Origin: Shewanella baltica
GTDB lineage: Bacteria; Pseudomonadota; Gammaproteobacteria; Enterobacterales; Shewanellaceae
DNA: 64,000 nt
Direction: 5' to 3'
Assembly: GCF_900456975.1 (NCBI RefSeq)
Contig: NZ_UGYM01000002.1
Coordinates: 4,712,001 to 4,776,000 of the forward strand
Part shown: positions 1,749 through 21,011 of the stretch, one piece after another
Position numbering within the stretch: position 1 is the first letter of the stretch
Layout: the number at the start of each line of letters is the position of its first letter
Notes under the pieces: generated by a model
Told to the model about the DNA's origin: nothing
The model's database searches: none
What the model saw: only the letters and a program-made list of their open reading frames with translations
Position numbers and translations under genes: made by a program

Positions 1749-2165
1749 TTACGGTAGCTCGACGAATCTTCTATTTCTGTATATCTCAGTTAATTTTTCA
1801 TTATCAAACCTTAATTCGACAATATCCATAGAACTAGCATTTAAATAAAAAACCCATCTATCACTTTTTTTAAACTCTTCACCAGAGTTTTTATGAAAAT
1901 ATGGCTCAATAAAAACATCGAATCCTTTATCTGTAACAAGAAGTTTAGAAGCACTTTCTGAAACCTTGACAAGGATAAAAACTTTGTCGCCTGAACTTTT
2001 GATTTCGGAAAAGAATTTACCTAGATTATTATAAACCTTACTCTTATCATCTCCAATAGATAGTCCATATTTCTGACCTCCTTTAATAGACTCCTCGCCG
2101 TAATAATAAAAAATAAATACAGCAAGTATTAGTAACAATAAAGTAGATAATTTTAATGCTTTCAT
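1749..2165 (-). CDS. Membrane-anchored small protein, candidate immunity protein of the Rhs toxin
   Basis: A 138-residue protein with one hydrophobic segment at about residues 5-21 and a short Tyr-rich stretch, then a soluble Lys/Ser/Glu-rich domain predicted to face the periplasm. No recognised family motif is seen. It lies 24 bases downstream of the Rhs-core/toxin gene on the same strand, is A+T-rich like that gene's 3' part, and is the last gene of the locus. In polymorphic-toxin loci the gene directly after the variable toxin tip normally encodes the cognate immunity protein. The role is therefore inferred from position only. A membrane anchor would suit neutralising a toxin active in the periplasm or at the inner-membrane face. 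Confidence 0.6.
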   Translation of the reverse strand: MKALKLSTLLLLILAVFIFYYYGEESIKGGQKYGLSIGDDKSKVYNNLGKFFSEIKSSGDKVFILVKVSESASKLLVTDKGFDVFIEPYFHKNSGEEFKKSDRWVFYLNASSMDIVELRFDNEKLTEIYRNRRFVELP

Positions 2166-2189: not shown

Positions 2190-3086
2190 TTAATTTAACT
2201 CTTCATCGAGTTTACGTGAATCAAGTCTACCTGATACCCGAAAAACCGGAGGTGAATTACCAACGTTCACCATTGAAGATTGATTATGTCCCGGCTGCCA
2301 TCCTCCAGTTGGTACATTGGCTGTTCCCCCATCCGCTGCATGTGCGACAGCACCTGCAGCGGAATTACTATTAACTGAGCCAGTAAAAAGACTAGGTACG
2401 TATTTGTAATTCCTATTTTCTTGAACTGTACGAGCCAAGAAACTCACATCACTATCTGAAGCATCTATTGCCCTGAAAGCAACGCCACTGTTTCCTTCGA
2501 AACTTAAAGATTGCCATGCTGAACTATCGTCTTCCCAAGTTCGAGCTGCACCTCCTGAATTTACGTGATTAACTAATCCCATTTTTCCACTTTCAAGAGG
2601 ACCCCAAGAGTATACTTTGGCATTTGGATCACCAAGATATTTTGCGTGAGAGACAATAAAGTTGTGATTTCCTATTGGAGATCCTTTTAACGCTCGACTA
2701 ACAAGAAAACTATCTCTGCCATCTGGGTCAATGTATTTATACGGATTGTTATTTGCATAACTATATCGGTTGAAATTGTGAACATTATCAAACCCAACCG
2801 GATCATTCGAATAAAACCGACCTATCAGTGGATCATAATATCGTGCCTGCATATAGGTCAGGCCCAAGTCTTTATCTTGCAGATGACCTGTATACCCAAT
2901 GCCTTCTTTATCGCCACCCATGCGCTTACCAAATGGTTCATACTGGCTGCGACTGATAATATTACCCGACTCATCCGATTCTGATACGACCGACCCTAAC
3001 ATATCTGTGTGCTGGTAACGCACGCTTGCTGCTTGAACTGGGAGCGCAAAGAGCATTAATGCACATATCACATTTATCCATTTCAT
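2190..3086 (-). CDS. Exported Rhs-associated core domain fused to a variable C-terminal toxin-like domain
   Basis: The start is ATG 3086, chosen because AAGGAAGG lies 8 bases upstream; a longer frame to 3140 lacks this. The protein has 298 residues. Residues 1-20 form a signal peptide ending LPVQAA. Residues 23-124 are a textbook Rhs-associated core: HTDMLGSVVSESDESGN, YEPFGKR, YMQARYYDPLIGRFYSNDP, FNRYSYANNNPYKYIDPDGR. From residue 126 the sequence leaves the core and becomes a domain of about 170 residues with HNFIV (141-145) and NSNS (239-242), a layout seen in some papain-like or amidase effectors; there is no recognisable active-site Cys, so the fold is unproven. The Rhs shell that should precede HTDMLGS is in the separate upstream gene, 41 bases away. 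In ordinary Rhs proteins these parts form one chain. Confidence 0.8.
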   Translation of the reverse strand: MKWINVICALMLFALPVQAASVRYQHTDMLGSVVSESDESGNIISRSQYEPFGKRMGGDKEGIGYTGHLQDKDLGLTYMQARYYDPLIGRFYSNDPVGFDNVHNFNRYSYANNNPYKYIDPDGRDSFLVSRALKGSPIGNHNFIVSHAKYLGDPNAKVYSWGPLESGKMGLVNHVNSGGAARTWEDDSSAWQSLSFEGNSGVAFRAIDASDSDVSFLARTVQENRNYKYVPSLFTGSVNSNSAAGAVAHAADGGTANVPTGGWQPGHNQSSMVNVGNSPPVFRVSGRLDSRKLDEELN

Positions 3087-3127
3087 AAAATTAGCCTTCC
3101 TTAACACTGATGTTTGTCCCTGAGCAA

Positions 3128-6100
3128 TTATTGAGTACATTGGCTACCACTCAGCGTCCAGCCAGATGGGCAAGTGTAAACGATAGCGGTGGTTGCCAAT
3201 CGGCTACATTGAGAGCCGCTCAGAGTCCAACCTGAAACACAGGCATACACAGGGGTACTGGTCGCATTTTGTGATAACGTGCGAGTACAGCTAGTACCAC
3301 TTAGCGTCCAACCTGCATCACAGGAATACACAGATTTCGGCGTGGCGGCATAGGTTTCAGTGCACTCCCATAAACGCATTCCCCCACCCATTGGTTCACC
3401 CCCCGTACAAGATAATCCTGTACCAGTAGGTGGCTTACTTGATGTTTGACTAAAAAAGCGAGAACACATCGAGGTCGCTGAATTGAGCGAACCGCCTCTA
3501 GGGCAACTCAATTGAGTTGTACTGTTAGCCGTTTTGGATTCCGTCTTCTGGCAAGTCGACCCCGACAGGGTGTAACCCGTTGGGCAACTGTAGCTATAAC
3601 TGCTAATGCTGGCCGCCTGTGTTTCTGCTTTCTCACAAAGCGTTCCTGCCGTGTTTAAGCTGTATCCCACAGGGCAAGTCTTCGTTGCTGGTTGAGTGAC
3701 TGCGCATCCTGATGGCGGGCAAATATCCACTTCAGCCACTATCTGCTTACCAAGGTAAACGCTGTCTGTCTTTTTACCATTATCATCTTCACGGTACAGT
3801 AGCTGTCCGGCTTTGTTATATACGGTATAAGCAGTACCTGATGGCTTGTTCTGTTTGATTTTGCGATTAAAGCCATCATAGACATAAGCCATGTCTTTAG
3901 CGGCCACCATTTGCTGAGCACGATTAAAACTCAGTGAATAACGTCCGTTATGAGTAATATTGCCAGCGGTATCATATTGATAGCTGTAGGCATAGGCACC
4001 ACTTAAGTTATTTAAACGATTAAGCGTGTTGTAATGGTAGTTGATAGTGGAATTGTTCAAACTACGGCTAAGGATGTTACCCAGACCGTCATAGACGTAA
4101 CGTCCTGTTCCCCATTTGCCATCGGCAGACCTCAGCCTATCGACGCCATCGTAACTCAGGTTAGATATGTTGTTGCTTGAGTCAACACCATCAATCAAGC
4201 GGGTTAAATTGTCGTTACTGTCATAACTAGGGTCGAGGCTATTCTTCAGCGAGCCAGCTTTGATATCCGTTAGCGCATCAATTCGCCCAGTGGTGTCCAA
4301 TGCGACGTTACGCACAATGCCATTACCATAGGTGAATTGTTTAAGTTGTCCATTTGGATAATAACTGACTCCTGAAGCATAGGTGCCCGCTTTTGTGGCT
4401 TGACCTAATGCATTAGGCGCAAAGTCCACCACGGCACCAGAGGGATATTGGAGAGAGGCAACACTACCTAAGCTATCGTAGCCCGATGTCAACGCAAAAC
4501 TGCGACCATCAATGCTGAGAGTTTCACTCTGAGGCAAGTTGAGACTGTTATATTGATATTGCCACGAAGCCGTTCCCGTTGTTAACGACTTCAAATTGCC
4601 GTTATTGTCATAGGTATACTGTCTGTCAGGTGTTGAATCTGGGAAGTCTTCAGTCTTGAGTGCACCGACGTTGTCATAAGTAAGCACCACTCTATGTGCC
4701 GAAGGTACGGAGGCTTCATCACAAGACGTCGTACTACCAGATGTCCCCTCTGCTCGCCATATCATTTCACCAACATTATTATAGCCAAATGCTGCCATCC
4801 CCGTATCAGGACGCACCACCTTACACAGGTCGCGATAGCCATTGTACAAACGGTTTTCCGTAATCGAGCCCTGAGTAATGGCAACAATTTGGTCTAATTC
4901 ATTGTAGTTGATACTAATGACATCAGTATCAGGCGCAGCTATCTGCGTCGCTTTCTCACTCGATGGCGAGCCATAAGCCAAATAATTTGTTAGCGTTGTA
5001 TTGCCACGACCATCTGTTACTGCAGTTTGATTGCCTGATAGATATTGCGTCGTTGTCTGGCTATTATCACTTGTGCGAGTTGTGGATGTGGTGCGAATGA
5101 GCCCATCGTAAGTGATAGTGGTTCCCAGCGTCTCATCAGGTGAGGTCGATGGAAATGAAGTAAAGGTAGGCTTACCGTAAACGTTAAATGCTTGGCTAAT
5201 ATATTTAGCGGTTGCAGACTCGTTATTTAAGTCCCACTCTTTCACTAAAATAGGCCTCATTAAGCCATCGAGCGTGACCGTCTTTTTGTAGTTGCCACGT
5301 GTAATATTTTGGAACAATGCCGCATTATCACTACTGTCTAAGTCGTAGCTAATAGTTGTATCAGCCCATCGCGTATCCGCATTCTTTACATTGATAACGC
5401 GGTTATTACTGTCATAACGATAGTGAGTTTCAACACCATTAAAGTCGGTTACTTTGGTGATATTGCCACTGCCATCGACCACCATTGATGCCGACAAAAA
5501 ACAGGTATCTGGGTTTGCACAATTAGCAGTGTCACGTTGAGGGATTTTGATTAACTGCGGCTTGCCACGCATATAATTGGCAAATGCCATCCAACGATTG
5601 TTTGCATTGAACGTAGTTTGCTTTATGTTGCCATCACCATAGTAACTGTGCGTGCTGAGCAATCTGCCATTTTGATACTCTTGGTAAAGCGAAGACTTTT
5701 CGGCGGAATTATCAGGATAATAGGTATTCTTCTTGGCGGTGATATAGTTAACCCCATCAAATGAAATGGCGTTGCTATCCTCAAGATTAATTAACCAATT
5801 ATTCAAATCATGATAATACGTATTTTTTAGGTATTTCCTATTAGCATTAAAACCATTGGACTCTACCGTTAACTCGGGTGAGCCGTAGTTATTGAAGTTT
5901 AAAAACTCTTTAGTATAAGCATCAACTCTTGAGTCTTGCGTATGTTGATAGATAGTACTTTTTATATTATTGACAAAGCTATTGTACTGCGACTCATTTT
6001 CAAATGAAGCGGCGCTGCCTAAAAAAATTTTTCCGTCCCATTTACCGCTAAATAACTGCGATTTACCTATCGCACTCCCTTGGCCATAGGTCATCTCGCT

Positions 6101-7816
6101 GCGCTGCAATAATGTGGTACCGTCAGTATCGTACAAGTAGGTCGCAACCTCCTTATCTTGCGAATAGTTATAACGACGGTCAAACACATGGATTGCTTTA
6201 CTACCATCAGGAGCAACCACAGTGGTTGAACGTAAATCCATTGCTGACATGCCACTTGGTAGTTCTGGTAGACCCGATAATGCCTGTGGTGCAGGTCCAT
6301 AATCGCCACTTCCATCTACGTATTGCCCTGGGTTTTGTGAGTAACTGTAATACCAATGCAGTGGAGAAACGCCTTTCCCTGATAACGTTTTTCTAATCAG
6401 CGCAAAGTTTGAAAAACATCTATTGTGAACGTTGATCCTAATATTAGGTAGCCGTTCAAATTGCTTAGGTACTTGTGAGCGTCCAAACAGTGTTGACCGA
6501 ACCTCAAACTCAGCTTTCAATCCATTAGGATGAGTCACTCGACTAACATAAGATCGAGGCACATAATTAGGATTCATCTCAGAAAATGTGCACTGCATGT
6601 CATCTTGTTGGGAGTCGCCTAGACTGTATTGAATATGGCGCTGCTCTAAGGCATTAGTCGGTGCAAAGTCAATATCATATACCCATTCACGTCCATCAGG
6701 TAAAACAACACGATAAAGTTGGTCTGGATAAATACTAATACCTCCAATAACCTTTTTCTCAGTTGCGATTCGATAATAGTACGACCAGGTTTTTCCATCA
6801 CTTGTAATAGACTTAATACGCTTTCGTTCTACACCAGGTTCATAAGTAAAATGAATAGACCTGCCATCGGAAGAGGTAATCGAATCCAATTGGTCTGGCG
6901 CGCTGTAGTGATAGGTTACTTTATTATTAAACCTATCTTTTACCTCGGTAACCTGCATATATGCTTTAAATACGGGGGTTGTAGTTGTCCATGTAGCACT
7001 CGTTTCTTTATCGACGAAAGGGATTTCTAATATCTCTGCTGGAAAAGTGCGTAACATGCTAAACGTATAGGTAATCCCCTGTGGAGATGTGGCAATAAAC
7101 GCCTCTGAGTTGCCATTAGCCTGACAGGTGATACGCCAGTTTTTAGCAACCCGCGTGACACCTGGGGTTACCGTATTAGGTTCAAGTAATCGCTCTGAGC
7201 CTACGCTTGGGACGTTAATAAAGTCACCGTTCCAATATTGTTTCGCGACAATATAGCCCATACCATCGCCAAGGTAACTTGAACCTGGATTGAGGGAGCC
7301 TGAGCAAGGTTTGCCATTTGTCCAAGTATTAACTGTAGCATCACCATCTACTATGGTGGTAGAAATTGACGGTATATCTAACTGCCAATCCGCAAAGTGC
7401 AATAATTGCCCCTGTGAATATTGGACTCCTTTATAAACTCGAGTAATACCCATTTCGATAGGAAAATTACCAGGAATTACTAAATCAGTATTTGTCATAC
7501 TGATAGCCCCTGAATTTAAATCAACCTTTTCACCGAAAAGCTCAGTTGTTTCAGGGGTCACCTCTGTTTTTATATTCATCCTTGCTAAGGCAAGTTCAGC
7601 GGTATTTGTGGGGGATGTGTCCGAACCTCCGGTATTTGCCGCTGATACAACAGCAAATTTTGAAATACCCTGAGGCTGTTGAGTAAGACCAAAGCCAGGC
7701 TCCTCCAAAGCTTCAGCAATCACAGGATTGATGTCGGCAGCATACGCTGCACTTGTAAGGGGCGATAAAAATGTCAAAAATAATGCGGAAGACAGTTTCT
7801 TGTAACCGATATCCAT
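3128..7816 (-). CDS. Secreted Rhs/YD-repeat shell protein with a cysteine-rich repeat tail
   Basis: A 1562-residue protein with a signal peptide at residues 1-27 (SAAYAADI at the predicted cut). The N-terminal third has VDLNSGAISMTNTDLVIPG, typical of exported Rhs/wall-associated proteins. YD repeats run through the middle and C-terminal half (for example YDNNGNLKSL, YDGLGNILSRS, YDTAGNITHNGR, YDGFNRKIKQ). The chain reaches YLGKQIVAEVD at about residue 1360. A normal Rhs would continue there into the HTDxLGS core. Instead about 200 residues follow with roughly seven copies of C-x2-G-[WY]-x-L-x4-C, such as CPSGWTLSGSQC, and the protein ends right after the last copy. The core and toxin are supplied by the next gene. 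The Cys repeats may form disulfide-stabilised modules outside the cytoplasm. No type VI PAAR or VgrG domain is visible, so general export is likely. Confidence 0.85.
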   Translation of the reverse strand: MDIGYKKLSSALFLTFLSPLTSAAYAADINPVIAEALEEPGFGLTQQPQGISKFAVVSAANTGGSDTSPTNTAELALARMNIKTEVTPETTELFGEKVDLNSGAISMTNTDLVIPGNFPIEMGITRVYKGVQYSQGQLLHFADWQLDIPSISTTIVDGDATVNTWTNGKPCSGSLNPGSSYLGDGMGYIVAKQYWNGDFINVPSVGSERLLEPNTVTPGVTRVAKNWRITCQANGNSEAFIATSPQGITYTFSMLRTFPAEILEIPFVDKETSATWTTTTPVFKAYMQVTEVKDRFNNKVTYHYSAPDQLDSITSSDGRSIHFTYEPGVERKRIKSITSDGKTWSYYYRIATEKKVIGGISIYPDQLYRVVLPDGREWVYDIDFAPTNALEQRHIQYSLGDSQQDDMQCTFSEMNPNYVPRSYVSRVTHPNGLKAEFEVRSTLFGRSQVPKQFERLPNIRINVHNRCFSNFALIRKTLSGKGVSPLHWYYSYSQNPGQYVDGSGDYGPAPQALSGLPELPSGMSAMDLRSTTVVAPDGSKAIHVFDRRYNYSQDKEVATYLYDTDGTTLLQRSEMTYGQGSAIGKSQLFSGKWDGKIFLGSAASFENESQYNSFVNNIKSTIYQHTQDSRVDAYTKEFLNFNNYGSPELTVESNGFNANRKYLKNTYYHDLNNWLINLEDSNAISFDGVNYITAKKNTYYPDNSAEKSSLYQEYQNGRLLSTHSYYGDGNIKQTTFNANNRWMAFANYMRGKPQLIKIPQRDTANCANPDTCFLSASMVVDGSGNITKVTDFNGVETHYRYDSNNRVINVKNADTRWADTTISYDLDSSDNAALFQNITRGNYKKTVTLDGLMRPILVKEWDLNNESATAKYISQAFNVYGKPTFTSFPSTSPDETLGTTITYDGLIRTTSTTRTSDNSQTTTQYLSGNQTAVTDGRGNTTLTNYLAYGSPSSEKATQIAAPDTDVISINYNELDQIVAITQGSITENRLYNGYRDLCKVVRPDTGMAAFGYNNVGEMIWRAEGTSGSTTSCDEASVPSAHRVVLTYDNVGALKTEDFPDSTPDRQYTYDNNGNLKSLTTGTASWQYQYNSLNLPQSETLSIDGRSFALTSGYDSLGSVASLQYPSGAVVDFAPNALGQATKAGTYASGVSYYPNGQLKQFTYGNGIVRNVALDTTGRIDALTDIKAGSLKNSLDPSYDSNDNLTRLIDGVDSSNNISNLSYDGVDRLRSADGKWGTGRYVYDGLGNILSRSLNNSTINYHYNTLNRLNNLSGAYAYSYQYDTAGNITHNGRYSLSFNRAQQMVAAKDMAYVYDGFNRKIKQNKPSGTAYTVYNKAGQLLYREDDNGKKTDSVYLGKQIVAEVDICPPSGCAVTQPATKTCPVGYSLNTAGTLCEKAETQAASISSYSYSCPTGYTLSGSTCQKTESKTANSTTQLSCPRGGSLNSATSMCSRFFSQTSSKPPTGTGLSCTGGEPMGGGMRLWECTETYAATPKSVYSCDAGWTLSGTSCTRTLSQNATSTPVYACVSGWTLSGSQCSRLATTAIVYTCPSGWTLSGSQCTQ

Positions 7817-8509
7817 ATCACGTTGTCCTTATTTTTATTCAACATGAATTACTAATATATTTAATGTTATTCTTTAAATTTGAGATTAAATCGATCTCAG
7901 CTAAAGTTAATGTTGCCAATATCGGCACGGTAACATTTATGCGTGTAAAATAACATTGCAAACACTATTGAAACAAGTGGTTGTAGGAAGCTTGGTGAAT
8001 TCACACCAGTTAATTTTAAAGACAAAAACCTACACATTATTCAATTAGCGCCATGAACTAACCAATAGCTCAACATAAAGTGAAATTAGTCACTACAAAA
8101 AAAATTATTAGTAGTTTTATTTTTTTAATCATAGTTGCCCATCTATAGGATTTTTCGCTAACATTTCTCGAACAAAATACGGTATTTCGTCTTAGCACAA
8201 ACCTCATTGTGAGGGAGATTCATCCCCAACATGTTGAATAGATGGATAATGTCAGTTTGGTTTGGGAGGTTAACTAATATGACCCAATTTGTTACGCTCC
8301 GTTAATTGTTTAGTTTTTAGTCTAAAAATGGAAATAGCTATACCTCATCGATTGATGCATAAACGCTAGGAGTATGTTGGAGATGCCATTCTTAATTTTA
8401 CAGAATGGATTACAAAATCTCATGCATAAGTGAATGTAAGGCGATGTTTAAAAGTAAAGCGCTGAATTGCTTTGGGGCATAAACGTATAAATCCATCTAC
8501 TGTCAGATA
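7817..8509. other. Gene-free A+T-rich interval between the Rhs locus and umuC
   Basis: About 690 bases with no convincing gene on either strand. It must hold the Rhs locus promoter, but no box stands out. One curiosity is a nine-codon frame at 8279-8305 preceded by GGGAGG (peptide MTQFVTLR), perhaps the stump of a lost gene. Confidence 0.5.
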
Positions 8510-9766
8510 TCAACACTTTATCTCGGGCAGACATTTCCACTTGGTAGTGTATTGCGGTGTGAGTAAATCTCGACGCATGGCCCATTTTTGCTCGATACCT
8601 TGGGCGGCAATGAATAAGGTATCAGTACCATAACGTTGATTGATGCCATCGAGGGTTTTCATTAATGCTGGTTTGGCTTTTGAGACATTGAATAAATCTA
8701 ACTGGCCATGCTGGGTGCTGACCAAATCAATCAGACCTACACCGACTTTGTAATAACGTACGCCTGCACGGAAAAGTTGAGATGCTGCTTGTGTCATCCC
8801 TTGAATAAGCTCAATGCTGCAATCAGTGGCGCAAGCAAAGTGCACTAAGGTCTTAAAGCCTGTTGGGCGTTCATCGTAGGGAGAATTGCTGGCAAACAAC
8901 AACATGGTTTTACAGCTAGAACCTTGCTTACGCGCTTTCGCTGCGGCAATCGCCACATGCTTACTTAACGCTTGCAGTAAATCCTCATACTCGGTAATAC
9001 GCTCGCCCACACTACGAGTTGAGAATATTTGCTTCTTATCCGCCCTCGCCTCGTCCCACACTTTGCACGCTTGCCCATTGAGTTCACGCACAGTGCGTTC
9101 TATTTCAATACTAAATTGCTTTCGCGCTAAACCTGCAGGGATTTTTGCTAAGTCATAGGCGGTTCTTACGTTCATCAATTCAAGTTTTTTGCTTATCCTG
9201 CGCCCAATGCCCCAGACATCATTCACACTCATTGATTGTAAAATTGAAATCCGGTCTTGTTCATTATCGATAGCACACACACCCTGATAGCCAGGTAACT
9301 TCTTTGCCGCATGATTGGCAGCTTTAGCCAGTGTGAGTGTTGAGCCGATACCGACACAAACCGGTAAACGTGTTTCTTTCCAAACCGCTTTTCGAATCAA
9401 CTGGCCTTGGGCTTGTAAGCACTTAATGGCGGGGTAACTATTTTTAAAGGAGAGAAAGCTTTCATCAATCGAATAGACATGCTGCTCTGGTGCAAATCGG
9501 CCAATGATATTCATCATCTTTGCAGATAAATCGGCATAGAGCTCATAGTTACTTGAACAAACAATGACACCTAATTTCGTACACAGGTCTTTGACTTGAA
9601 AGTATGGTGCAAACTTAGGCACACCCCGTTCTTTCGCTTGCTTGTTTGCCGCTACGATGCAGCCATCATTGTTGCTCAACACAATCATTGGCTTACCACG
9701 CCAATCAGGTCTAAATACCTGCTCGGCACTGCAATAGAAACTGTTGGCGTCTACCAAGGCAAACAT
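8510..9766 (-). CDS. umuC: DNA polymerase V catalytic subunit UmuC
   Basis: A Y-family translesion polymerase that copies damaged DNA after SOS induction, working with cleaved UmuD. The start is set at ATG 9766, which overlaps the umuD stop as TGATG; an upstream in-frame ATG at 9802 lies inside umuD. The 418-residue product has the palm catalytic carboxylates D6 (MFALVDANSFYCS) and D101-E102 (YSIDESF), the NNDGCIVAA nucleotide-binding loop near residues 32-40, and the helix-hairpin-helix MSVNDVWGIGRRISKKL. The C-terminal little-finger domain is complete, so the gene appears functional. It is co-transcribed with umuD from the LexA-controlled promoter upstream. Confidence 0.95.
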   Translation of the reverse strand: MFALVDANSFYCSAEQVFRPDWRGKPMIVLSNNDGCIVAANKQAKERGVPKFAPYFQVKDLCTKLGVIVCSSNYELYADLSAKMMNIIGRFAPEQHVYSIDESFLSFKNSYPAIKCLQAQGQLIRKAVWKETRLPVCVGIGSTLTLAKAANHAAKKLPGYQGVCAIDNEQDRISILQSMSVNDVWGIGRRISKKLELMNVRTAYDLAKIPAGLARKQFSIEIERTVRELNGQACKVWDEARADKKQIFSTRSVGERITEYEDLLQALSKHVAIAAAKARKQGSSCKTMLLFASNSPYDERPTGFKTLVHFACATDCSIELIQGMTQAASQLFRAGVRYYKVGVGLIDLVSTQHGQLDLFNVSKAKPALMKTLDGINQRYGTDTLFIAAQGIEQKWAMRRDLLTPQYTTKWKCLPEIKC

Positions 9767-10173
9767 CAGATGTCTGCTAATAATGGACTTTGGCGATGAC
9801 AACGAATAGAACGAATAACAACACCTTCAATGGTAAAATTATCGTAATCGTGAATAGGCTGAGGTTGGTGCTGTTCATTCGACGACAGCAGCATGCGATG
9901 CTTTTTATCGAGGATTTTACATACAAATTCACCGTTGAAATTGGCAACTATCACATCACCATGACGCGCGGTTTCCTGACGGTCAACAATCAGTAAATCG
10001 CCATAAAAAATGCCCACTCCCTGCATTGAGTCACCTTTGGCGATACCAATAAAAGTCGCGCTAGGATGCACAACTAACAGCTCATCGAGGCTCAGACCTA
10101 ATTGACCATATTCAGCTGCAGGGCTTTCGAAGCCAGTGATACCGGCACTGGCATGGATGGGGATAATACGCAT
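9766..10173 (-). CDS. umuD: UmuD, self-cleaving subunit of DNA polymerase V
   Basis: A LexA-like S24 peptidase fold. RecA filaments trigger self-cleavage to UmuD', which then binds UmuC. The start chosen is ATG 10173 (MRIIPIHASAG, 135 residues); an in-frame GTG at 10185 would start on the last base of the LexA operator and has no ribosome site. The catalytic Ser is in GDSMQG and the general-base Lys in EFVCKIL. The segment ITGFESPAAEY corresponds to the cleavage loop. The dipeptide aligned with the E. coli Cys-Gly cut is Thr-Gly here, with an Ala-Gly four residues earlier that may be the true site. Confidence 0.93.
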   Translation of the reverse strand: MRIIPIHASAGITGFESPAAEYGQLGLSLDELLVVHPSATFIGIAKGDSMQGVGIFYGDLLIVDRQETARHGDVIVANFNGEFVCKILDKKHRMLLSSNEQHQPQPIHDYDNFTIEGVVIRSIRCHRQSPLLADI

Positions 10174-10184
10174 AGTTAATACCA

Positions 10185-10200
10185 CTGTTTTTATATACAG
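10185..10200 (-). promoter_or_regulatory. LexA (SOS) box of umuDC
   Basis: CTGTTTTTATATACAG is a perfect CTGT-N8-ACAG LexA operator with an all-A/T spacer. It lies 12-27 bases upstream of the umuD ATG, where bound LexA would block transcription of umuDC. Confidence 0.92.
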
Positions 10201-10233
10201 TAATTATAGGCGTTGTTAGGTAACTGGCAAGAA

Positions 10234-10464
10234 TTATTGTGATGTTTCGATGTAACACCATTGGTTCTTTTCTTTATCAAACCCCACGTCAACATTCGCC
10301 GCGGTGGTGTCACCCGTCTGGTTTCTCTTTGCAACGATATCTTTTAGTTCAGATAAATCATCAACACAGGTAGGTTCCGACAACTGCACCAGAAACATGA
10401 TAAAGAAGCCAAAAGTGGTTAAAAATAATGTTGTGACAAAGACTCGCACTGGTCTGAAGAGCAT
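10234..10464 (-). CDS. Small single-pass membrane protein of unknown function
   Basis: A 76-residue protein with a good ribosome site (AAAGGAAAG upstream of ATG 10464). A hydrophobic segment at about residues 8-27 is followed by an acidic, probably periplasmic tail with Cys residues in PTCVDD and QWCYIE that could form a disulfide. No family is recognised. It lies just upstream of the LexA box of umuDC on the same strand, but 60 bases before umuD and outside its operator, so it is probably not part of the SOS operon. Confidence 0.6.
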   Translation of the reverse strand: MLFRPVRVFVTTLFLTTFGFFIMFLVQLSEPTCVDDLSELKDIVAKRNQTGDTTAANVDVGFDKEKNQWCYIETSQ

Positions 10465-10637
10465 GGTTCTGCTTTCCTTTGCAAATAGACAACCTGTTTA
10501 GCTACGTTGAAATGTAGTAACAGCGGGGCAAAAATGCAAAATCAATCAAGATGAACCAAACTTTCATTGGGGCAAAAGCGAGTTAACTTAGATTGGCGAA
10601 TAAATTTTGCACAATTTTAAATTACAAGGAGTTAAAT

Positions 10638-10766
10638 ATGCAAATCAAACCAGGGCCTAAAAGAACAAACGAGGATGGTACGCCGGATAAAAGGCAAAGA
10701 GTTACCGAGGGAAAAAAGAAAGAACACTCCGACCTAAAACCACACAAGCACAAAAAAGGTGACTAA
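10638..10766 (+). CDS. Very small, highly basic protein (42 aa)
   Basis: ATG 10638 has the strong ribosome site AAGGAG at a 6-base spacing. The product is 42 residues, dominated by Lys, Arg, His and Gly, with an HKHKKGD end and no hydrophobic segment. Small proteins of this make-up often bind nucleic acid, but no function can be assigned. A+T-rich sequence upstream leaves room for a promoter. Confidence 0.5.
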   Translation: MQIKPGPKRTNEDGTPDKRQRVTEGKKKEHSDLKPHKHKKGD

Positions 10767-10875
10767 TATAAACCTAGAGTGCTAACTCGGAAGTTCGCGG
10801 ACACTGCAAAGGGTAAACTGAGCAGAATCAAAAAACCTCGCTAGAAATGCAATTTGAGATCAATTAGCGCTTCCC

Positions 10876-11082
10876 TTATGGCAAGAGTACTCTGATATCA
10901 CACCCTAATACTTCGGCCAACTGATAAGCCTTTTCGAGCGTGATGTTTACCTCGCCACGCTCTATTCGTCCTACATAACTACGGTCAATTTCAGCCAATA
11001 GCGCCATTTTATCTTGAGAAATACCAAGCCGTTTACGTTCTTCCCGCAGTTTCGCCCCAAATTGGATCGCTAAGTCTTTCAT
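10876..11082 (-). CDS. Small XRE-family HTH regulator of the helicase module
   Basis: A 68-residue protein that is essentially one Cro/CI helix-turn-helix: GISQDKMALLAEIDRSYVGRIERGEVNITLEKAYQLAEVLG. It resembles the small controller proteins of restriction-modification and other defence operons. It is divergent from the winged-helix protein and helicase at 11214-13176, with about 130 bases between, so it probably represses or times that operon and itself. A similar small XRE gene accompanies the VspR regulator in the Vibrio VSP-1 island; this comparison is from memory. Confidence 0.8.
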   Translation of the reverse strand: MKDLAIQFGAKLREERKRLGISQDKMALLAEIDRSYVGRIERGEVNITLEKAYQLAEVLGCDIRVLLP

Positions 11083-11213
11083 TTTTCATCTCGTTAAAGA
11101 GAAAGACTATCCAAAGTTGCGGCTTACAAAGCCACGGATTATAATCCGCATTACATTTACAATGCTCTAATAACGCTTAGAGCGATCACTAAACAGCCTG
11201 CTGCGAGAACGTC

Positions 11214-11756
11214 ATGCCTAAATCTTCAATCAAAATATGCACGACATTGCATAACATTCTCCAGGACGAGAGCTTCAATAATTTTCAAGTAATGGGCCTG
11301 AGAGACGCCTATCTCGCAGCTTCAACTAGCGCTCCTAGTCTTAGTGATACCTACAATTTCATTTATCGTCAGGTCCACAGGCTCGTGAAGAAGGGGATCT
11401 TAGATAAAAATGTGGATGAACAGACGAAGGAAACAACTTACCAAAAGACTGCAAAATTCTTTCAAACAAATTTTATTCTGCAAAAATCAGAGGCATCTAC
11501 ATCCACTACAGAATCGCCAACAAGAAACACGCAAAAAAGTAATGCAATTAATCAATTAGAAGAGCGGCTCAAGCAATCCGAAATTGATTTATTTACGAGC
11601 ATCGGCGAGTCCGAAGAGTATATGCGCTTATATCAATCCTTTCCCGACATGAAAGTACACCTCGAATCCCAGTACTTGCAGGCTCGCGAAACAAGCTCAA
11701 AACTACTTGGCCAAATCAAAGCGATTAAATCTGCTATCACCCATCAGCAAAAGTAA
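11214..11756 (+). CDS. Winged-helix-like plus coiled-coil protein, possibly VspR-type regulator
   Basis: A 180-residue protein. Residues about 5-75 read like a winged helix: IKICTTLHNILQDESF, then RQVHRLVKKGILDKN as a recognition helix and wing. A low-complexity Ser/Thr linker (about 85-105) leads into a C-terminal coiled coil (INQLEERLKQSEIDLF and onward) suited to dimerisation. The domain order and its neighbouring small XRE gene recall VspR of the Vibrio VSP-1 defence island, a resemblance that was not tested. It lies four bases upstream of the helicase ATG, so the two are surely co-transcribed. Roles as DNA-binding sensor, regulator or helicase partner all remain open. Confidence 0.55.
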   Translation: MPKSSIKICTTLHNILQDESFNNFQVMGLRDAYLAASTSAPSLSDTYNFIYRQVHRLVKKGILDKNVDEQTKETTYQKTAKFFQTNFILQKSEASTSTTESPTRNTQKSNAINQLEERLKQSEIDLFTSIGESEEYMRLYQSFPDMKVHLESQYLQARETSSKLLGQIKAIKSAITHQQK

Positions 11757-11760
11757 CCGA

Positions 11761-13176
11761 ATGCAACTTAGACAATGGCAATCAGAGTGTGTCAAACGCG
11801 CTCTAAGACACTTTCACGGTGCACATAGACACTTTCTTTGTTTAGCAACGCCTGGGGCTGGAAAATCGATTATGGCAGCCGAAGTTGCTGCGAAATTATT
11901 TGAAGATGATTTAATCGACTTTGTACTGTGCTTCTCCCCGTCAGTGAATATATCTCAAGGGATGAAACAAACCTTTTCAAGTCGTCTAAGCTGCCGGTTT
12001 GATGGCGTGATAGGTTCAGTTGGTTGCTCTTATACTTACCAAGGGATGTTGGCCTTTAAAGAAGACTTTTGGCAACTGCTAAAAAGAAATCGAGTACTCG
12101 TGATCTTTGATGAAATTCATCATTGCGCAGGGAGCTCTCTAGAAGATGCGAACGCATGGGGGGAAGAGATTCTACTCAACATACAAGATCAAGCGCAGTA
12201 CACACTAGCGTTAACTGGTACGCCTTGGCGCTCAGATCAAGCACCGATTGTTTTATCTCGATATACCGACCCTGATAATCAAATTCAATGTGACTATGTG
12301 TATGGCCTGAAGGAAGCTGTTGCCGACGGTGTATGTCGTAGCCCCCGCATTGTACTTATTGATAATGACAAAATTTTAGTTACTGACGAAGAAAACGAAA
12401 CAAAGACATACAGTTGTTTAGATGACTTATTTAAATGCTCATCGGTTTCGTACCAGTCGATCATCAAAAATCATGAAGCAATTCGACATACTTTAGCGCT
12501 AGCAACGGACAAACTTGGAATGATAAAACAGTCCAATCCTAATGCTGCCGGACTCATCGTCGCTTCATCAATATCGCACGCCGCATATATCTTTAATATG
12601 CTAAAAACAGATTTTAGTGAAACAACTCAGATAGTTACCTACAAAGAAGATGACCCCTCACTTAAGATAAATGAATTTAGAAATAGTACGACTAATTGGA
12701 TCGTCAGTGTAGGCATGATAAGTGAAGGGACTGACATCCCTCGTCTACAGGTCTGCTGCCACCTTAGCCGAGTAAAAACCGAGCTCTACTTTAGGCAGGT
12801 TTTAGGTCGTATTTTACGTACGAATGATTCGACGAACCAACAAGCTTGGCTATACACCTTTGCAGAGCCAAAACTTGTCGAATTTGCCAACCGTATAGCA
12901 GAAGAAATACCTGATATACCTGTGTTATTTAGAGAGCCAATCGAGATAAATCTCAAACGCGAGCAACCCGAAACCCATGATATGACAGTGAAAACAATGC
13001 CACCTACTAACAGCAATATTCTGAATATTGGCAGGCAATACCTCGCTAAACAGACACAATCGTATTCTGTAGAGCTTTTATCAAGGGAATTTTTAGGTAC
13101 TCCAGCATCGTTATCATTTGAGCTTTTAGGTGGTTTTAGAGAAAAAGTTGTCTCAACTTTTGACTCACCGTTTTAA
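11761..13176 (+). CDS. Superfamily 2 DEAD-like (ResIII-type) helicase, candidate defence effector
   Basis: A 471-residue ATPase starting at ATG 11761; an in-frame TTG at 11707 lies inside the previous gene and was rejected. SF2 motifs in order: the Q-like RQWQSECV near the N terminus, Walker A ATPGAGKS, motif II FDEIHHC, motif III LTGTPWR, motif V SEGTDIP and motif VI QVLGRILR. The DEIH box and compact two-RecA-domain build resemble the helicase subunits of restriction and anti-phage systems. No nuclease, methyltransferase or HamA-like partner is encoded beside it. The last roughly 80 residues after the helicase core have no recognised motif and might be an effector or recognition tail. Confidence 0.8.
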   Translation: MQLRQWQSECVKRALRHFHGAHRHFLCLATPGAGKSIMAAEVAAKLFEDDLIDFVLCFSPSVNISQGMKQTFSSRLSCRFDGVIGSVGCSYTYQGMLAFKEDFWQLLKRNRVLVIFDEIHHCAGSSLEDANAWGEEILLNIQDQAQYTLALTGTPWRSDQAPIVLSRYTDPDNQIQCDYVYGLKEAVADGVCRSPRIVLIDNDKILVTDEENETKTYSCLDDLFKCSSVSYQSIIKNHEAIRHTLALATDKLGMIKQSNPNAAGLIVASSISHAAYIFNMLKTDFSETTQIVTYKEDDPSLKINEFRNSTTNWIVSVGMISEGTDIPRLQVCCHLSRVKTELYFRQVLGRILRTNDSTNQQAWLYTFAEPKLVEFANRIAEEIPDIPVLFREPIEINLKREQPETHDMTVKTMPPTNSNILNIGRQYLAKQTQSYSVELLSREFLGTPASLSFELLGGFREKVVSTFDSPF

Positions 13177-13401
13177 ATCCAAATGTCTGAATTATGGTGC
13201 CCACTTTTCTCGACACTTTGATTTTTAGTTTCATGGTAGTTCCATAAAACTAAAAATGATTGGATACACTAAAGCCTTAAAAGCTATAGAAGCCAAAGAT
13301 AGAATACCAACAAATTTTTACCATTTTACAGATCTTTGTGTACAAAAGTGAGACTGAAAACAATCAAACTTGAAGATGCCACAAGTTTATACTATTAAGT
13401 A

Positions 13402-15906
13402 TCACACAAATACTTCGGATGTTATTTGAACCGGTGTATCAATTTGATTCATAATGTCAGTATAAAGATCTACATCAATATCGACTTCTGGTACCGCTAT
13501 GGAAATAATCATGGAATAGCGAGCTTTTTTATCCCATTTTTGCAATTTTGTTCGAGTGCGCCACCACCCCATAGCAGGGTAAATCGCAATTTGTCCTCTT
13601 GCAGCCAAATCAGCCGCAGTTCCTTTCCAGACATCTTTATGAATGGAACCTTTATGCCTAAAATCACCCAGCAACCAGTTCGGATCACTAGGAGCAATAG
13701 CAGTACCTTCTTCTGTATCTTGGGCGTTACGACTTAATCTAGCGTGGAATTCTTTAATTGATTCAGTTGACCGCTTCACATCAAATCTAAGTTGATGACT
13801 AGGGTAACTATATTTACCGGAAACATTTCTGCTTGAAGGATTTGGTTCTATAAAATAAGAGAGCGTAACCGTCATTTCGACATCCACCTCCCCTAGTTTT
13901 AATAAGCTATCCTTAGGCCATGGGATATCGTGTATATGCATATCACGTGTGCTTGGTTGCTTACCCTGCTTTTTTTCATATGGTTGTAATTCATCTTCCA
14001 CTATTAAAGCCAGAGAATTATTCATACTTTTTATAGCTTTATCTAAATTTGGAACTCCAAAACCAACACAACGGACTAAATGTGTTGCTTGTTGGCGGGG
14101 CGTTGTGCCGTGCACGAATTGTTTTTTCATTGCATCAGTCCATTCAGCTGAATGGACGATGAGCGCTCTTACCGTTTCAGGCCATATTGAGGGATAAATC
14201 GCATAAATTTCAGCTGCAAATTTACCCGAAAGTGCGGTTGCTGCACTTGTTGCTTCAAATGTAGAAAAATGCCTTTCTGTTATCTTATTATGTGTAGTTA
14301 ATAATTTCAGACTTGCAAAGCCAGAGCAGCTCAATTGGTCATAACCAACATTACCACCTTCAAAGACAACCTCGGGTTTAATTGGTGTATTTCTGTTCCA
14401 TAATACTGATGTTGTACTATAAGGACTTAATCCACCATGCGGAGCTAGTGATGAATATGCTTGAGTATCTTCTTCAGTGATATGAGTTTTCTGTGTGTAT
14501 GCACCAACAGTTAATGCATTCCATGCTTGTCCTGGATCATGTACATCTTGTAGTTGATTGTAGTCAGGATATTCCAGTAACCCAACGAGATCATCCCCCG
14601 TATTCCCTGCTGAAATAGTTATTAATCTCGGATTAAGATTATCTCCTAGCGAATCAGTAGCTAACTCATCCACTGTGCTAGACCAAGCAGATGGTCTCCC
14701 TCTATCTCTACTGTCGGAGGATGATAATGCCATTGCAAAAACACGAGTACGCTTATGATCCGATATTTCTGGTAAAGAAATAGCATCACTCATAATTATT
14801 CCATAGTGTTTGCCTTCATTATCACCTGAATGGCGAAGTAGTTTTACTGACTCTAACCTATGGCTAATATTAATAGTCTCTGTAGATGAAAGTGCATCAG
14901 TTAAATCAGACCATAAAGCAAGACCTGCCATTCCTGTACCGTGTCCATTATCATCACTTGGACTCCAATCAGGATTAACCGAGAATTGATCTACTTCATT
15001 AATAAATGGTTGTAATAATGGGTGGCAGATATTTACGCCAGTATCTAAAATACATAAATATGGTGGATTTTCGCCTTTAATCATTGTTCGAGATAAGAGC
15101 TCATTACTCCAATCTTGCTGTTCTATAGGTGATAACTCATCAAAGAACGAGGCCGTTTCCTTTGCAAGGCGTAATTCAGATATCTTACTTAGCAAAAGGG
15201 AACTATTAATGAATTGTTTTCTATTTGCTTTTGCTAATAAAACTGAGCGTTCAGGAAATTCAAGAACGTGATCTGATACCTGAATTTCTAATTCGGCTGA
15301 GAGTATTTTAAAGTCATGAATTAAAGCCTGTCTATCATCCATGACCGGTAACCAAACTTCCCACCAAAACACTTTGTGAATGTCTTCAGGTAATAAATCA
15401 GGATCGTCTGTCCATAGGGCTTCAATAGCGGCTATTTTCAGTGACTTTATAGCATCGAATAACTTTCTGTTATCAATTGGTTTTTTGTTTTTGTCTTTTT
15501 TAAAATTTAAGTAAGCTTCGAGCTTTTTTTCAATAGAGACAAGTTTGCCTTGTGGAACAAATATAGTGGCAAGAATTTGATTTTCTGAATATCGAACATT
15601 CAGTAATTCAATTCCTTGGACAGCATCCGCTAGGCTTTCAACTGCTAACTCCACGCCAGGAAAGCTTTCGAATGCTACTTGAATTCCAAGTCTTGATTCA
15701 AGCTCATACTGTGCAGCTTTTTGTTCTAACTGTGCTTGAAATTTTTTAACTAAAGTTATTTGGGATTGTATGGCGGCCCCATGAGTTGGGCGGTGTTTTT
15801 CTGGAATATCTTTATTTATAATAACCTTTTTAGGATAAGTATATGGTAAGGATGTACCATTTCTTCCAAGAAATATATGAGGCTTCGCTCCATTATTTAA
15901 AGACAT
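13402..15906 (-). CDS. ietS: Subtilisin-like serine protease of an IetAS-type defence pair
   Basis: An 834-residue S8-family peptidase with the full catalytic set: Asp288 (CILDTGVN), His322 (DDNGHGTGMAG), oxyanion Asn435 (SAGNTGDD) and nucleophile Ser554 (EATSAATALSG). About 280 residues precede the protease domain and about 240 follow it. There is no signal peptide, so it should act in the cytoplasm, unlike most subtilisins. It lies 9 bases after the AAA ATPase gene on the same strand. An AAA ATPase plus cytoplasmic subtilisin is the known IetAS arrangement, first described as plasmid-incompatibility genes and later shown to be anti-phage. Family membership is strong from this pairing; the target protein is unknown. 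Confidence 0.85.
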   Translation of the reverse strand: MSLNNGAKPHIFLGRNGTSLPYTYPKKVIINKDIPEKHRPTHGAAIQSQITLVKKFQAQLEQKAAQYELESRLGIQVAFESFPGVELAVESLADAVQGIELLNVRYSENQILATIFVPQGKLVSIEKKLEAYLNFKKDKNKKPIDNRKLFDAIKSLKIAAIEALWTDDPDLLPEDIHKVFWWEVWLPVMDDRQALIHDFKILSAELEIQVSDHVLEFPERSVLLAKANRKQFINSSLLLSKISELRLAKETASFFDELSPIEQQDWSNELLSRTMIKGENPPYLCILDTGVNICHPLLQPFINEVDQFSVNPDWSPSDDNGHGTGMAGLALWSDLTDALSSTETINISHRLESVKLLRHSGDNEGKHYGIIMSDAISLPEISDHKRTRVFAMALSSSDSRDRGRPSAWSSTVDELATDSLGDNLNPRLITISAGNTGDDLVGLLEYPDYNQLQDVHDPGQAWNALTVGAYTQKTHITEEDTQAYSSLAPHGGLSPYSTTSVLWNRNTPIKPEVVFEGGNVGYDQLSCSGFASLKLLTTHNKITERHFSTFEATSAATALSGKFAAEIYAIYPSIWPETVRALIVHSAEWTDAMKKQFVHGTTPRQQATHLVRCVGFGVPNLDKAIKSMNNSLALIVEDELQPYEKKQGKQPSTRDMHIHDIPWPKDSLLKLGEVDVEMTVTLSYFIEPNPSSRNVSGKYSYPSHQLRFDVKRSTESIKEFHARLSRNAQDTEEGTAIAPSDPNWLLGDFRHKGSIHKDVWKGTAADLAARGQIAIYPAMGWWRTRTKLQKWDKKARYSMIISIAVPEVDIDVDLYTDIMNQIDTPVQITSEVFV

Positions 15907-15915
15907 TTAACATCC

Positions 15916-16899
15916 TTATTTTTTATTTAAATGCTGACTCATTTTGTATCTTTCTTTGATTGATTTAATTAGGATCGAAGCAGTGACTCTAGGTAATCCA
16001 TTAATTAACATTTCTTTTATTGCATCATCAGAGGCACGAGTTATTTCTGCGCTACTTAGTCCTCTAGCTTGCTCTGGTAGCTTATTCCAACCAAAACTTT
16101 TTGCAACAAAAGGCATAAGTTTGTTTTTTAAAAGAGTAATAATCTCACTATCATCAGGAAGTTGATAATGTATTACATCATCAAACCTGCGGAATAGTGC
16201 ATGATCAAGAATTTCCATATGGTTGGTTGCACATACGATAACGCTATTTGAATCATCCTGTTCAATCATTTGTAAAAAACTATTTAAAATTCGTCGAGCT
16301 TCGCCCACATCGTTTGTTGAAGAACGATGTGAACCAAGAGCGTCAAATTCATCAAAAAAATATACTCCACGAACTTCATTTATAGCATCAAAAACTTGTC
16401 GTAATTTTGCAGCAGATTCACCCATAAATTTGGTGAGTATACCATCCAGCCTCACTTGAAAAAGAGGATAATCTAGCTCTCCTGCAAGAATTGAGGCTGT
16501 ATATGTTTTACCTGTGCCAGGCGGACCAACTAATAAGATTTTTCGTCTGGGTGAAAGACCATGATTTTTTAGCTTTACCATGTGCCTTTGTTCTCTAATT
16601 AGACGTTTTAATTGGTCTTTTAACTCGACAGGAGCTGTTAAATTATTCAGCTTTTCTTTGGGATGGCTAGTAAAAAGCAGACCATTGGTATCTTTTATGC
16701 TTTTTGCTATAGAAATAGGTAAGTTCTTAAGGGATACCTTTTTAGCTTGTTCTACTATATCTCTCAACTCTTGAGCTAAACGCCCGTGGCCACTCCTTGC
16801 TTCGTGCGCAGCAACTTGCAAGGTTAACGATAAAAATCGATCGTCGTCCTTTTCAATGTGTGAGCTAACTAGAGCTTTAAGTTGTTCTGAACTGGCCAT
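15916..16899 (-). CDS. ietA: AAA+ ATPase of an IetAS-type defence pair
   Basis: A 327-residue ATPase of the FtsH/spastin-like AAA class. Walker A is GPPGTGKT (125-132), the pore loop FMGESAAKLRQVF follows, Walker B is VYFFDEFDALGS (DE at 183-184), sensor 1 is ATNHMEILDHA and the arginine finger region is LFRRFDD (237-240). An N-terminal region of about 110 residues may bind partner or substrate. It lies upstream of, and is presumably translated with, the subtilisin gene. In this family the ATPase is thought to activate or feed the protease; the sequence itself shows only intact motifs and tight linkage. Confidence 0.87.
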   Translation of the reverse strand: MASSEQLKALVSSHIEKDDDRFLSLTLQVAAHEARSGHGRLAQELRDIVEQAKKVSLKNLPISIAKSIKDTNGLLFTSHPKEKLNNLTAPVELKDQLKRLIREQRHMVKLKNHGLSPRRKILLVGPPGTGKTYTASILAGELDYPLFQVRLDGILTKFMGESAAKLRQVFDAINEVRGVYFFDEFDALGSHRSSTNDVGEARRILNSFLQMIEQDDSNSVIVCATNHMEILDHALFRRFDDVIHYQLPDDSEIITLLKNKLMPFVAKSFGWNKLPEQARGLSSAEITRASDDAIKEMLINGLPRVTASILIKSIKERYKMSQHLNKK

Positions 16900-17424
16900 T
16901 TTCGCTACTTCATTGTTTTATATAGTTAAATTGCAAATTGTATTGCTAATGATACGATGATACAGCTTTTTCAAGAGATTGTCTTGCTACTCAAACGCGT
17001 CAATAGTAGGTATTCGGTTCTCGTTGATTATGATTGAGCTTGCTTGTGATTTAATAAACGTCTTACTCTTAGCCAAATTATAGTTTGGAAATTTTTACTA
17101 CATTGTTCGCTTATTTATTGCTAATTATATAGTGGCACACTGAATTTGGAATTACCCAAAATATTTGCAGCCGTATCCATAAAGTATGACATCTATAATT
17201 CCTTTTAAGACAAATAGTTGGATTAGAAACTCAATAAGTAGTCAGTATACTAAATTAAAAATTCATACAAAAAATCTTCGTTCAACAATGTGAAAACAAC
17301 GACTTCATCGGCGAGGGAAAGATCACACCTTTCACTATCTTTTTTACTTATGATTAATTAACTTAACACCATCAAGGACGAATCCAGCTGTTACTTGTCG
17401 TGACAACTACAAATGGGACTACAC
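16900..17424. other. Divergent promoter region between the IetAS and Gabija pairs
   Basis: About 520 A+T-rich bases with no gene that can be supported. Both flanking operons read outward, so their promoters must lie here. No operator or hairpin is obvious. Confidence 0.5.
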
Positions 17425-19344: not shown

Positions 19345-21011
19345 TTAGACACGATAACTGGAAACCTGCGGATGGGCTAACTCTTGAACCAAATGCTGAA
19401 CGAGCAGTAAAAGAATGCGAAAAAAATTTAGCCCTAACAGCAGGTCCTGGTGCTGGTAAAACAGAAATGCTTGCTCAGCGAGCTGACTTCTTACTCCGAA
19501 CAGGCACTTGCCGCTATCCGAAGCGAATTTTGGCAATTTCATTTAAAGTTGATGCCAGTTCAAACCTAAAAGATCGGGTAACTCGCAGGAGTGGAGATGA
19601 ATTATCATCTCGATTTGATAGTTACACGTTTCATGCATTTGCTAAGCGAATTATTGACCGTTTTCGCCCCATACTCACAGGCATCTACACGTTAGATTCA
19701 GAATATACCATTGGAAGTCCTAGAACGCCTCAGAAGCAAATAGAATTTGCAGATTTGGTTCCATTAGCAACTCGTATCCTCCAAAGTTCTGCTGTAGCTA
19801 GAAATGCCATAAGACAAACATATACTGATGTGTTCTTGGATGAATTTCAGGATTGTACAGATATTCAGTATGAGTTTCTAAAAATAGCTTTCCAAAGCAC
19901 AACAATTCGATTAACAGCTGTTGGAGATACGAAGCAAAAAATTATGGGGTGGGCAGGTGCGCTTGATGGGATTTTTGTCACTTATGCTCAAGATTTTCAA
20001 GCATTACCATTAAACATGTATCGTAACTTCCGCTCAAAGCCACAGCTTCTTCGGTTACAAAACGAAATCATCCGGACACTAGATCCTGCCTCGGTGATGC
20101 CGAATGAACTCATTGTTGGCAATGAAGGAGAAATACGAGCATTTCAATTTGAAACAAGCCAACGTGAAGCTGAATATCTAGCCGAACAAATTCAAAATTG
20201 GATAATCGTAGATAATATCCCTCCAAACGAGATTGCTATACTCATACGAAATCAACCACATTTATATGCCCAACATCTAATACCTGCGCTGCGAAATAGA
20301 CAAATACCTTTTAGAAACGAGCAAGAATTACAGGATATAACTGTGGAACCTGCTGCCCGCCTCATTGTCGATTTCCTTCTTTGTACTTTTGGTAAACGTG
20401 AACCCGCAGCTTGGTTAAGGCTAATGAACCAATTGATCCCATTTACCGATGACGAAGAAGAGCAGGATAAATATCAGCAAATCTGGCTTAACTTCATTCA
20501 ACGCCAGCGGAAAAGAATTAGGGAAAACCCAATAACAATAGATAACCAAAGTCGTTGGCAAAGTGTTCAAAGTTTTATTGAACTTGTCGGTATTGAAACA
20601 ATGACAGCACTTTCACATGACTACGAAACAGCCTCTCGTCTAAATGAAGTTCTAAGGGCAACATTTAATAAGTTAGATGAAACCTTGGCTTCAGGCCTGA
20701 CACTACTTGAAGCACTTTGCCAGTTTACAGATGATCAATCAGTAAGAATATTGACCTCACACAAAAGTAAAGGGCTAGAGTTTGATACTGTAGTACTTTT
20801 AGGCATCGAAAATGAATGTTACTTTGGGGCCCCTCAAGAGAACCTATGTACCTTTTTTGTTGGAGTTTCCAGAGCTAAATGTAAGCTATTGTTAACATTT
20901 GCAAAAGAGCGAATACGGCCAGAAGGCTTTTCTGGTCGGTGGAGTGAACAAAGAACACTTGTTAATGAGTATGCTGGTTATGTCAGGCCATTTTTATCTA
21001 ACAATAACTAA
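19341..21011 (+). CDS. gajB: GajB-like UvrD/Rep-family helicase (Gabija)
   Basis: A 556-residue superfamily 1 helicase starting at GTG 19341, overlapping the gajA stop as GTGA, so translation is probably coupled. Motifs: Walker A TAGPGAGKTEML near 32-43, motif II LDEFQDCTD near 170, motif III GDTKQKIMGWAGA, motif V TSHKSKGLEFDTVVLLG and motif VI FFVGVSRAKCKLLLTF. The length matches GajB, which is shorter than housekeeping UvrD (about 720). In Gabija the helicase senses DNA termini or unwound DNA and stimulates the nuclease. Confidence 0.88.
   Translation: MIRHDNWKPADGLTLEPNAERAVKECEKNLALTAGPGAGKTEMLAQRADFLLRTGTCRYPKRILAISFKVDASSNLKDRVTRRSGDELSSRFDSYTFHAFAKRIIDRFRPILTGIYTLDSEYTIGSPRTPQKQIEFADLVPLATRILQSSAVARNAIRQTYTDVFLDEFQDCTDIQYEFLKIAFQSTTIRLTAVGDTKQKIMGWAGALDGIFVTYAQDFQALPLNMYRNFRSKPQLLRLQNEIIRTLDPASVMPNELIVGNEGEIRAFQFETSQREAEYLAEQIQNWIIVDNIPPNEIAILIRNQPHLYAQHLIPALRNRQIPFRNEQELQDITVEPAARLIVDFLLCTFGKREPAAWLRLMNQLIPFTDDEEEQDKYQQIWLNFIQRQRKRIRENPITIDNQSRWQSVQSFIELVGIETMTALSHDYETASRLNEVLRATFNKLDETLASGLTLLEALCQFTDDQSVRILTSHKSKGLEFDTVVLLGIENECYFGAPQENLCTFFVGVSRAKCKLLLTFAKERIRPEGFSGRWSEQRTLVNEYAGYVRPFLSNNN

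Follow-up and report, generated by a model that had tools for sequence, protein, structure and literature searches.

In Shewanella baltica (assembly GCF_900456975.1), a stretch of 64,000 nucleotides (contig NZ_UGYM01000002.1, positions 4,712,001 to 4,776,000; hereafter the window, whose numbering is used throughout) carries at 2190..7816 two adjacent genes that quite probably specify one antibacterial Rhs toxin made as two proteins, which are separately exported and assembled outside the cytoplasm. The larger gene encodes a YD-repeat shell, while the smaller gene encodes the Rhs core and a variable tip. Rhs polymorphic toxins carry shell, core and tip on a single chain, whereas in the window these parts are divided between two genes, and we regard a toxin split over two exported proteins as a new variant of Rhs toxins. 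Among the open literature matches listed, a set to which subscription papers and preprints do not belong, no Rhs toxin whose core is exported separately is described in the available text. The features of the locus, all on the reverse strand, are as follows.

1749..2165, reverse strand: candidate immunity gene, 138 residues, hydrophobic N-terminus (position alone)
2190..3086 (open from 3140), reverse strand: core-tip gene, counted from the likely start ATG (open reading frame and start reading)
2193..2717, reverse strand: variable tip, probable toxin domain (model good over about residues 143–297)
2718..3023, reverse strand: Rhs core VRYQHTD...DPDG with DPVG and DPDG motifs (family match and alignment)
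3027..3086, reverse strand: core-tip signal peptide MKWINVICALMLFALPVQAA (signal-peptide rule, see below; end judged by eye)
3095..3102, reverse strand: ribosome-binding site AAGGAAGG of the core gene (read from sequence)
3128..7816, reverse strand: shell gene (family match and model of residues 364–1562)
3131..3724, reverse strand: cysteine-rich C-terminal shell module, 198 residues, 16 cysteines, CPxGWTLSGSxC repeats (sequence)
3725..3757, reverse strand: junction YLGKQIVAEVD, the final conserved shell piece (sequence and drop in model confidence)
3725..7534, reverse strand: YD shell region, from a DUF6531-like start through YLGKQIVAEVD (family matches and model; DUF6531 below cut-off)
7739..7816, reverse strand: shell signal peptide MDIGYKKLSSALFLTFLSPLTSAAYA (relaxed rule passed; end judged by eye)

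The shell gene encodes a YD-repeat/Rhs cocoon of 1562 residues, with both the Rhs core and the toxin tip lying outside its frame. The shell matches RHS_repeat (PF05593) at 42.5 bits against a cut-off of 22, the repeat that characterizes Rhs polymorphic toxins; DUF6531 reaches 17.9 bits, under its cut-off of 24.1, and no PAAR, VgrG or similar N-terminus is matched at an E-value of 1. In the AlphaFold model of residues 364–1562, the YD shell is mostly predicted at confidence 70–90, with a few weak stretches, and a Foldseek search with this model retrieves teneurin-like, Tse5 and RhsA shells (best E-value 2e-30). The first-pass annotation placed the end of the Rhs part of the large gene at YLGKQIVAEVD. 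This is indeed the last conserved piece of the shell, and model confidence drops two residues past it, but the gene itself continues for the 198 residues of the cysteine-rich module, on which that annotation is silent. The CPxGWTLSGSxC repeats of this module, possibly a mobile unit, are also present in Shewanella SpvB/TcdB-like proteins of 2.3–2.7 thousand residues, in TraN family (PF06986) and other large proteins, and inside one-chain Rhs proteins, where they occupy several different loop positions.

The shell and core open reading frames share 13 nucleotides at their ends, in different reading frames, and there is therefore room for no gene between them. The core frame (2190..3140) encodes 316 residues counted from its first ATG. 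The gene probably starts 18 codons into the frame, at the ATG at 3086, with AAGGAAGG 8 nucleotides ahead of it, and the product then reads MKWINVICALMLFALPVQAA followed by SVRYQHTDMLGS, in agreement with the earlier claim that the core gene has its own signal peptide and ribosome site. By eye, the signal peptide ends one residue ahead of VRYQHTD. The protein scores 78 bits with TIGR03696 (Rhs_assc_core; cut-off 32.5); its core begins at residue 40, and RHS_repeat has no match in it. Both DPxG motifs expected of such a core, DPVG and DPDG, are present, and residues D113 and D138 are invariant in a 32-row alignment. Self-cleavage of the tip is putative, with the motif as its sign in the sequence.

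When the core protein is modelled alone, the tip is confident, while most of the core (residues 71–140) stays at 40–56, which may be because the core needs its shell. The tip model matches TseH and Aichivirus 2A with middling scores, pointing to a papain/NlpC-like fold, in which the usual cysteine position presumably holds a serine, judged by eye. Also by eye, HNFIV and NSN(S/T)A are kept in most of the 32 rows. Tips are polymorphic across relatives, as in other Rhs polymorphic toxins: clustering of 96 tips gives 70 clusters, of which 54 contain a single tip. The candidate immunity gene adjoining the tip has no family match above its cut-off.

To compare the junction across relatives, a shell-tail profile and a core profile were run over the window, one further stretch of the same genome, and 56 + 11 regions. 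These regions were picked via their cores, from best matches; the counts are therefore not frequencies, and they are silent on shells without a core. For pair counts, the nearest core was taken for each shell in which the tail model was matched past position 180, a definition that takes in shell fragments such as the frames of 131–1046 residues at L061, L006/L007, L066, L082, L049, L152, L159 and L053. In all 11 one-chain frames, the tail match is followed directly by the core match with zero modules between; the spacing from tail end to core start is 6–14 positions (5–13 residues between) in ten of them, and the matches overlap in one. In the one-chain frames L101 and L102, which the filters placed outside the pair counts, the two matches likewise overlap or adjoin. 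The earlier statement that the second gene is the exact continuation of an Rhs chain thus holds.

The first-pass annotation proposed to look in other genomes for an Rhs shell ending at this point beside a signal-peptide-bearing core gene; the regions examined, some from the window's own genome, contain 45 pairs in which a shell or shell-tail fragment and a core occupy separate frames. In 44 of these pairs, the junction bears a module at least some 90 residues long, attached to the shell, to the core or to both, the core-side length being counted from the preceding stop codon and hence including the signal peptide. The sole pair without a module belongs to the same genome as the window and has a shell extension of 40 residues. 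Of 64 junction stretches, 55 form one related group, FnIII (fibronectin type III)- or immunoglobulin-like by eye, in which Shewanella core-side pieces match the shell-side pieces of other genera (best E-value 6e-30). The cysteine-rich type is present in the window and in L038, and another type is common to L087 and L095. Since the modules of split pairs lie at the break, one site serves both domain addition and chain cutting.

The signal-peptide rule requires a positive start, a nine-residue hydrophobic stretch, and small residues at the cleavage site, within the last 60 residues ahead of the core. It is passed by 32/37 shell-adjacent cores without a core-side module and by 11/11 cores with such a module, in the stretch ahead of the module, compared with 0/9 one-chain proteins, supporting the original proposal of an Rhs toxin in two separately exported proteins. 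Other stand-alone cores pass in 12 of 28 cases, and, when real start codons are used, 57 of 76 stand-alone cores pass. Among the five shell-adjacent misses of an earlier run, four are signal-peptide-like by eye, and the fifth (L063) is a displaced second copy. The called cleavage site lies 3–12 residues from the core, or 113–124 residues where a module stands between, with single cases at 72 and 222. Shell frames of at least 1150 residues, which include the one-chain frame L101 and some frames cut by a region edge, pass in 28 of 39 cases, or in 31 under a relaxed rule. The window shell passes the relaxed rule only, its hydrophobic mean of 1.97 lying above the relaxed threshold of 1.7 and under the 2.0 of the rule.

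Split Rhs toxins are not confined to the window. The same genome contains four more cores at 3.89–3.92 Mb, corresponding to three shell–core pairs and one orphan shell tail plus core. Matches at 1e-10 are found in 43/129 Shewanella genomes, and among the 50 listed Shewanella places scoring at least 129 bits, 47 lie in frames of 239–523 residues and three in longer frames; of the short frames, at least one (L054) is part of a one-chain protein, and several represent displaced copies. Other genera of the order, in which 33/295 genomes have any match at 1e-15, contain short core frames as well, as does the class, in which 96/369 genomes match at 1e-10; one-chain proteins are included in both counts. 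Furthermore, 5 of 16 multi-member tip clusters mix one-chain and stand-alone cores.

A tree of the tail plus core columns was built with 46 clade rows (36 split and 10 one-chain) alongside 34 outgroup rows; the clade rows are those, out of 84 core-hit frames, in which both parts were long enough. The split state needs at least four changes, three of them forced by the starred branches, indicating from the aligned sequences that splitting, or splitting and re-joining, took place several times. The window falls in a 10-row clade that is entirely split (support 100/99), within a 26-row clade of which 25 are split (98/99). A split that is old and repeated on the tree is consistent with the first-pass argument against a random frameshift.

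Bcn-A of Xanthomonas perforans looks, from its sequence relatives, like the same two-protein Rhs design. In the available text of its description (PMC7259588), the locus comprises ORFA (1398 residues, Rhs family), ORF2 (124 residues), ORF3 (100 residues), ORF4, and the immunity gene ORF5. Deletion of ORFA, ORF2 or ORF4 abolishes activity, and deletion of ORF3 reduces it. Activity is found in the supernatant, mostly above 100 kDa according to the figure legend and at 50 kDa and higher according to the text, and is lost in an xpsD mutant background, so that type II secretion is needed (PMC7259588). Using the two printed helix peptides of ORF4 (PMC7259588, as available) as query, we retrieved P0243, which contains both peptides exactly, and P0244 of Xanthomonas sp., both with Rhs cores above cut-off (67 and 74 bits). 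P0244 is 46% identical to the window core protein over 142 residues, and VRYVHTDGLGSV stands directly after its signal peptide. ORF4 of Bcn-A would accordingly be expected, by sequence, to have an Rhs core.

In genome family f39, apparently Xanthomonadaceae, 145/297 genomes match P0244 at 1e-20 (one-chain proteins included). At 7 of 11 f39 loci, a shell ending in YxxLxGSxxAE and a further module is followed, after a gap of 771–1144 nucleotides, by a signal peptide and core; the shell frame has 1400–1430 residues in five of them and 844–847 in two. The gap contains two or three short frames in the four loci examined in detail, and TamB is upstream at the one locus tested (213 bits). At the level of gene order and sequence matches, this is the published Bcn-A layout. 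In L153, two small exported-looking proteins (7718–8412), DUF5992-like below the cut-off, stand between shell and core and correspond by position to ORF2 and ORF3. The window shares with Bcn-A a large Rhs shell gene, then a small signal-peptide gene for the Rhs core (predicted in ORF4) and tip, then an immunity gene (a candidate in the window). In the Bcn-A type, TamB lies upstream, the shell and core genes are separated by small genes, and the shell module is of another type; in the window, the first gene listed beyond the shell on its upstream side (8510..9802) is, by eye, another protein.

Type VI Rhs effectors, which are loaded on VgrG or PAAR, include RhsA, Tse5 and Tre23, which are among the best solved relatives and likewise have a YD shell, Rhs core and polymorphic tip; they are one chain, whereas the window has two chains with signal peptides. 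In the TcB–TcC part of Tc (ABC) toxins, as described in the accessible text, a single Rhs cocoon is built from two chains, the second of which carries the toxin, and one TcB can pack several TcC proteins (PMC11067744). In the solved YenC2 chain, the core is at residues 583–689, and the second Tc chain therefore brings about 580 residues ahead of the core, whereas the second chain of the window begins its core right after the signal peptide and has no large share of the cocoon. Unlike TcB, the window shell has no Pfam match to SpvB/TcdB-type N-terminal domains at an E-value of 1. Bacterial teneurin-like proteins, the top Foldseek match of the shell, have an exported YD shell and a cleaved toxic C-terminus but are one chain, according to the part of the source available (PMC13018210).

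We propose that the shell would cross the inner membrane via its own signal peptide and fold into an open YD cocoon, while the small protein would cross separately and supply the last cocoon part, the Rhs core, together with the toxin tip. Once exported from the cytoplasm, shell and small protein would join to enclose the tip in a single cocoon, from which core aspartates would release it by cleavage, as happens in one-chain Rhs proteins; the extra module, here the cysteine-rich repeats, would hang off the shell where the chain is interrupted. On the model of Bcn-A, the complex would probably exit by type II secretion, for which the three secretins of the genome are candidates, and kill neighbours, and the next gene would confer immunity. 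For Shewanella baltica, we infer chain association, cleavage, release route and target. Core-tip units may also move between shells. We hold it possible, though doubtful, that several separately exported, exchangeable core-tips share one exported shell as their common holder, the module serving for docking or target binding at the open place in the chain. In L152, four core-tip genes and a core fragment lie behind one shell frame (7767–18794 of a 20-kb stretch), the four cores having a nearly identical signal peptide and the same ribosome-site match.

Several points weigh against a toxin of two separately exported, assembling proteins. The meeting of shell and core is presumed, and type II secretion in this organism is putative; 18.5% of shuffled segments pass the signal-peptide rule, which is thus crude. 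In the available text on Bcn-A (PMC7259588), ORFA is considered the toxin, with ORF4 in an accessory role, the bcnA product is said to be without a signal sequence, and ORF2 is required, whereas shell and core overlap in the window, leaving no intervening gene. Related shells begin with signal-peptide-like stretches, Bcn-A itself being considered here from the paper and from the sequences of its relatives. In addition, the complete Shewanella genome G069 has three tandem core frames (L069; two full-length and one broken) yet no match to the shell tail at 1e-6 or to RHS_repeat at 1e-5. The same holds, at the same thresholds, for the cores of G098 and G001 (draft), and G100 has cores without a tail match at 1e-6, yet with RHS_repeat matches in another frame. 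These genomes favour two independent exported proteins, in which the YD shell would be adhesin-like, either secreted or at the surface, and the core-tip would be a toxin acting without it, as does the occurrence of the cysteine-rich repeats in TraN-family and other large proteins. We consider such independence unlikely, because killing by Bcn-A needs both ORFA and ORF4 (PMC7259588, available text), the core directly continues the shell in one-chain relatives, and the core, but not the tip, is mostly of low confidence when modelled alone.

Alternatively, the core gene could be a displaced donor cassette for recombination into a full Rhs gene, unused as a separate protein. Orphan arrays in which most full cores have no signal peptide called by the rule (L047 and L048 in G094), and the orphan shell tail plus core of the window's own genome, are in line with this. 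Because L047 and L048 mostly lack, and L152 has, signal peptides, core arrays may differ in use between genomes, some being silent stores and others being expressed as sets. In the window, however, a cassette of this kind is decidedly improbable, since, across several genera, a signal-peptide-like start is retained in most shell-adjacent cores, whose neighbouring shells are themselves without a core. A one-chain Rhs gene that broke recently has next to no chance of being correct: one-chain homologues do exist, even within the genus (L055 and L057), as the first-pass annotation had allowed, but the signal peptide and module at the break and the all-split clades already contradict a recent break of the window copy.

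Elsewhere in the window, there is a Gabija-like pair at 17413–21011 (GajA 1021 bits, GajB 833 bits) and an IetA/IetS-like pair at 13402–16899 (AAA ATPase 230 bits; second protein, IetS, 117 bits), the latter protein being, as we take it, subtilisin-like. At 56340–58571, a protein that is TonB-receptor-like by eye has a long low-complexity GGGTGTGGGTGT insert in its middle.

The two-gene design of the window would place the toxin-bearing end of an Rhs toxin on its own exported protein, suggesting a route by which tips may be swapped or multiplied, and would mean that the cocoon is assembled after export. Where the chain breaks, the module marks a place at which Rhs shells gain extra domains. 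If Bcn-A has the same design, its toxin would be on ORF4 and not on ORFA, and, if one shell does serve as a common holder, various toxins could be loaded into the same cocoon without recombination.
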